Shown here: positions 805-936 of the stretch, piece by piece
Position numbering within the stretch: the first letter of the stretch is position 1
Layout of the letters: each line of letters starts with the position of its first letter
Source of the DNA: Candidatus Omnitrophota bacterium
GTDB taxonomy: Bacteria; Omnitrophota; Gorgyraeia; 1-14-0-20-64-10
Reading direction: 5' to 3'
DNA: 42,262 bases
Assembly (NCBI GenBank): GCA_023248155.1
Contig: JAHFFE010000002.1
Span: 1-42,262 of the forward strand
Position numbers and translations under genes: made by a program
Notes under the pieces: model-generated
Seen by the model: the letters and a program-made list of their open reading frames with translations, nothing else
Databases searched by the model: none
What the model was told of the DNA's origin: nothing

Positions 805-833
805 TTGACACGCGCGGGGCAGGCTGTTAAAAT
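805..833 (+). promoter_or_regulatory. Sigma70-type promoter upstream of the csp leader
   Basis: TTGACA (805-810), 17-bp spacer, TAAAAT (828-833). Confidence 0.75.
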
Positions 834-839
834 CTTACT

Positions 840-936
840 AGTTGTGAATATGAAGTGGAAGTACAGAACCTTGATCAATATGTTGGTTAAACGACTGTGG
901 CTCCATAACTAAATGGAAGCTGTGGTCGTTTTTTTA
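840..936 (+). ncRNA. Predicted short leader RNA / sRNA (~97 nt) between promoter and intrinsic terminator, upstream of csp
   Basis: Near-consensus promoter at 805-833 followed by a strong hairpin plus U7 ending about 935; no large ORF inside. Confidence 0.5.
890..935 (+). terminator. Intrinsic terminator/attenuator in the csp 5' leader
   Basis: AACGACTGTGGCTCCAT (890-906) / loop AACTAA / ATGGAAGCTGTGGTCGTT (913-930): 17 pairs including G-U wobbles with one bulged A, then T-run 929-935. Confidence 0.75.

Follow-up and report, generated by a model that had tools for sequence, protein, structure and literature searches.

The stretch of DNA analysed here (the window, 42,262 nucleotides) belongs to the phylum Omnitrophota, and the named relatives of the cold-shock protein encoded near its beginning are overwhelmingly Omnitrophota MAGs. 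The gene, csp, codes for a CspA-family protein of 66 amino acids and is the only csp found in the window's genome; according to the sequences of relatives, its start codon is ATG 1008 and not GTG 999. The gene upstream is, judging from its sequence, presumably uppP (bacA). Downstream of csp, a strong terminator at 1244-1271 is followed by a gene at 1279-1626, which we take from its sequence to encode a release-factor-like protein with a GGQ motif (ArfB-like). The following features are located in and before csp:

805-833, + strand: sigma-70-type promoter, TTGACA-17-TAAAAT, with an equivalent in nearly all relatives
840-846, + strand: 5' strand of helix P1, AGTTGTG, which can form pairs with the loop of the terminator, as an antiterminator or pseudoknot strand
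864-880, + strand: 5' strand of helix P3, the closing helix around the terminator
890-930, + strand: terminator hairpin (arms 890-906 and 913-930, loop 907-912), conserved in relatives
904-910, + strand: 3' strand of P1, CATAACT, in and beside the terminator loop
929-935, + strand: terminator U-tract, U7 (seven T), also seen in the leaders of relatives
935-952, + strand: 3' strand of P3, formable only in readthrough transcripts
996-1001, + strand: ribosome binding site of csp, AAGGTG
1008-1208, + strand: csp

A sequence-only reading of this region had proposed a near-consensus promoter and, behind it, a hairpin with seven U residues ahead of csp, and both elements were recovered. The promoter consists of a -35 region TTGACA (805-810), a 17-nt spacer and a -10 region TAAAAT (828-833) with a preceding TG, which amounts to 11 of 12 matches, and transcription presumably starts near 840. 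It is the sole promoter-like site in a scan of positions 1-2400, where 1.6 such sites are expected by chance, so that the site alone is not rarer than expected. The hairpin comprises 16-17 pairs, among them several G-U pairs, and one bulged A; it is absent from the program's terminator scan, which permits no bulge. The minimum-energy fold of 840-940 (-22.5 kcal/mol) contains the hairpin, with z = -1.55 and 14 of 200 shuffled sequences equally stable. The arrangement expected of an attenuator, with promoter, terminator and controlled gene in that order, is present in the window, and since promoter and fold are unremarkable alone, the weight of the case lies on the comparison with relatives.

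In relatives, a recurrent order is found: a strong promoter, 30-60 nt, a terminator hairpin with U-tract, 50-130 nt, a ribosome binding site, and csp. Of 64 csp loci selected in Omnitrophota for their protein similarity, 41 carry promoter plus terminator, compared to 0.17 expected per dinucleotide-shuffled set. Lack of the hairpin upstream of csp homologues had been named beforehand as evidence against the proposal; a conserved hairpin was found there. Copies of csp without the leader also occur, either directly 3' of another gene (L010, L013) or as an additional copy preceded by a promoter alone (L040). None of 109 relative loci has a uppP homologue ahead of csp; csp and leader persist while the upstream gene changes, and the leader therefore belongs to csp. 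Some loci show peculiarities of their own: L020 has two tandem csp genes about 420 nt apart (around 1082 and 1501), each with a promoter-terminator leader, and in a leader subgroup (L066, L071, L106) the terminator is followed by a further hairpin (CCCGTTAG...CTAACGGG) ahead of the ribosome site. Two Nitrospirae csp loci (L113, L116) also show promoter, terminator and csp, the leader segment UUGUAGGG being complementary to the terminator arm CCCUGCGG, and the layout may accordingly reach beyond Omnitrophota.

The common form of the leader is described by the covariance model R1, which was built from 16 compact leaders that align well and matches 218 of the 384 genomes of the class (best E value 7e-21) as well as several Omnitrophota genomes outside it. 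All 100 matches that were fetched lie directly upstream of csp, one of them reaching the contig end after ATGGCA. In this form a closing helix, S1 (TAGTAAATA with TATTTACTA), encloses the terminator. In the 16-leader alignment, 98% of the cells of S1 and terminator are paired, with compensatory changes above those of shuffles, and this pairing is repeated in 100 leaders in an alignment that is itself fitted to R1. The segment just after S1, AAGG.GATTAG with variants such as AGGCGAGT, pairs as 5' strand with CTAA.CCTT (ATTCGCCT), which spans the junction of terminator loop and 3' arm, the pairing extending four bases into that arm; at least six such pairs are found in 94 of 96 common-form leaders. 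Six pairs in the core register are reached by 77% of the leaders, versus 19% when the 5' segments are shuffled and 55% when they are swapped, and the pairing is better than with swapped partners (p = 4.5e-5), a gain missing for control-region pairs; all of these statistics and p values ignore shared ancestry. When any 5' segment was allowed to form its best duplex with loop plus 3' arm, the signal was weak (mean z -0.46), and this general test is superseded by the register-specific ones. Since the start of the leader would sequester half of the terminator's 3' arm, we regard it as a putative antiterminator. The strand that pairs with the 5' end may also act on translation: pairing of the start-codon region (GTAGTAAATAATGG against TTATTTACTA) is formable in 77 of 100 common-form leaders, with covariation not beyond that of swaps in the 100 leaders, so that sequestration of the csp start codon as a translational layer is a possibility. 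In the A2 leaders, the 5' sequence recurs in the region of the csp start (TAGTAAATAATGG), where pairing with TTATTTACTA would be possible.

R1 has no match in the window or its genome, as the leader of the window's order is a diverged family form, which is also kept in seven relatives. The family model R2 matches the window and these seven relatives and nothing else in the class, and all eight had gone into its construction. Helix P1 of this family joins UGAGUAAG at the 5' end to CUUACUCA in the terminator loop. In the window, P1 comprises seven pairs between AGUUGUG (840-846) and CAUAACU (904-910), with p = 0.09 alone, and a combined p = 8e-8 was obtained over 14 family leaders, again ignoring shared ancestry. 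P1 is replaced by AAGUAAG:CUUACUU in two genomes and by AGUUUGAG:CUCAAACU in a paralogue, and its changes include one in which both partners of a pair are exchanged (GC to AU) and one in which the replacement sits in a shifted register. The closing helix P3 joins a leader strand (864-880) to the U-tract and the sequence following it (935-952); with p = 0.017 it is better supported in the window than the antiterminator pairing, and the combined p = 2e-6 over 10 leaders likewise ignores shared ancestry. Calculated energies favour the terminator at every temperature from 5 to 45 °C. The window's own leader gives the terminator-blocked state no stability beyond that seen with shuffled leaders (p = 0.84), and the energetic test of the antiterminator in the window's subgroup was not significant (p = 0.13). 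In the related leader L007, the alternative fold is extended, and a gap of only 3.6 kcal/mol separates it from the more stable terminator at 37 °C. The window has a longer terminator stem, and its alternative fold does no better than those of shuffled sequences; the switch may thus have lost strength in this genome and, with a P1 of only seven pairs, readthrough may here be constitutive and low rather than switched.

What the comparison supports directly is that the layout is conserved and linked to csp, that the terminator and the closing helices covary, and that the common form has a putative antiterminator helix in constant register. We consider it probable that these elements constitute a cis-acting transcription attenuator in the csp 5' leader. 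RNA polymerase would start near 840 and make about 50 nt of leader, and the hairpin at 890-930 together with the U-tract would stop most transcripts at about 935, yielding an RNA of about 95 nt as a by-product. In a fraction of passes, the leader start would capture the terminator loop and the adjoining part of the 3' arm, the terminator would be left incomplete and csp would be transcribed. After readthrough past the terminator, the closing helix (P3 in the window, S1 in the common form) would form and shape the leader into one domain, with the ribosome binding site left free. From the sequence comparison we infer that termination takes place in vivo and is switched by the pairing, and from the identity of the controlled gene, csp, that the input is low temperature and/or Csp itself; in the former case, the weak, A-U-rich antiterminator would be favoured in the cold.

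A variant of the attenuator, to which we give a rather low probability, is a pseudoknot in which the 5' end pairs with the loop while the terminator remains intact, so that the pairing tunes the speed of the terminator or serves as a protein site. The P1 pairs of the window's family lie mostly in the loop and are topologically compatible with the terminator stem, but the common-form pairing takes in four bases at the start of the 3' arm, and the small energy gap of the extended alternative in L007 also argues against an intact terminator. Somewhat less likely still is a constitutive partial terminator, where the hairpin sets a fixed proportion between the short RNA and the csp mRNA and is not switched, the extra helices serving only to stabilise that mRNA at its 5' end. 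The weak alternative pairing in the window and a closing helix that forms only after readthrough, as expected of a stability element, are in line with this explanation, as is the long 5' hairpin of Staphylococcus aureus cspA, whose processing by RNase III goes with higher stability and translation (PMC3386247); the explanation gives no role, however, to the pairing between leader start and terminator 3' arm, which keeps its register across the class. The sequence-only reading had left the choice between a leader attenuator and a stand-alone sRNA, and of these the attenuator is favoured by the 100 of 100 fetched matches preceding csp and by the changing upstream gene. An sRNA of about 95 nt whose gene lies upstream of csp by chance would account for the separate promoter and terminator and for the discrete short RNA they predict, but we judge it very improbable, as the leader never occurs away from csp in the fetched R1 matches, the window's genome has a single leader match, upstream of csp, and the conserved helices involve sequence downstream of the terminator, including the covarying post-terminator helix. 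Ribosome-mediated attenuation by the 20-codon open reading frame at 852-914, whose stop codon lies in the terminator loop of the window, was rejected as hardly credible, because inspection showed no corresponding ATG open reading frame in the relatives' leaders and no ribosome binding site.

Textbooks present cold-shock genes as controlled through translation and mRNA stability. In a little-studied, mostly uncultured phylum, the conserved csp leader with its covarying terminator and putative antiterminator would place control at transcription elongation, with output of this RNA-helper protein probably dialled down or up by the stopping or passing of the polymerase, and the leader could serve as a test bed for the action of Csp on its own terminator. 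Farther-reaching is the proposal of a phylum-wide cold-responsive attenuator, an RNA thermometer acting on transcription termination with feedback of Csp on its own terminator, which would take the place of the translational cspA thermosensor known from other bacteria; we put it forward tentatively and regard it as doubtful.

The csp leader is an RNA family absent from Rfam 15, and no family of that release gives a gathering-level match in the window. The cspA thermoregulator RF01766 scores 56.4 bits, below its gathering score of 78, and this match is carried by the csp coding region, with 103 leading model positions missing and the leader unaligned; membership was rejected for these reasons. 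The model includes coding region, and two deltaproteobacterial csp loci also match it, L095 with 97.7 bits (above threshold) and L088 with 65. Like the leader of the window, the Escherichia coli-type cspA leader of RF01766 is structured, belongs to a CspA-family gene and presumably adjusts the synthesis of Csp, but it controls translation by refolding and has no intrinsic terminator, whereas the window leader has one.

Intrinsic-terminator attenuators precede many bacterial genes, for example in the rpsL, rnk and greA leaders (PMC2965389), and have the same succession of promoter, terminator, alternative antiterminator and regulated gene; their helices and sequences differ from those of the csp leader, and the main text of that survey does not mention a csp leader. 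Premature termination in or before csp genes, as proposed here, is known for E. coli cspB and cspG, where it is Rho-dependent (PMC7815308), whereas the window has a hairpin and a U-tract. In S. aureus, the csp leader also contains a long hairpin, but this acts through mRNA processing by RNase III, and the accessible part of PMC3386247 describes no terminator. Csp proteins themselves alter terminator readthrough, which would allow a feedback loop in the csp leader: E. coli CspD lowers termination at intrinsic terminators (PMC9765468) and Bacillus subtilis CspB and CspD mostly favour it (PMC8307031). These opposite effects support a link between Csp and terminators but no particular sign of it. 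Both cases concern action in trans on other genes, whereas the leader described here sits before csp itself, and a Csp-responsive terminator in that position is not described in the accessible parts of these two articles. In the open-access papers searched, where csp control is translational, by RNase III or Rho-dependent, no intrinsic-terminator attenuator of csp was found.
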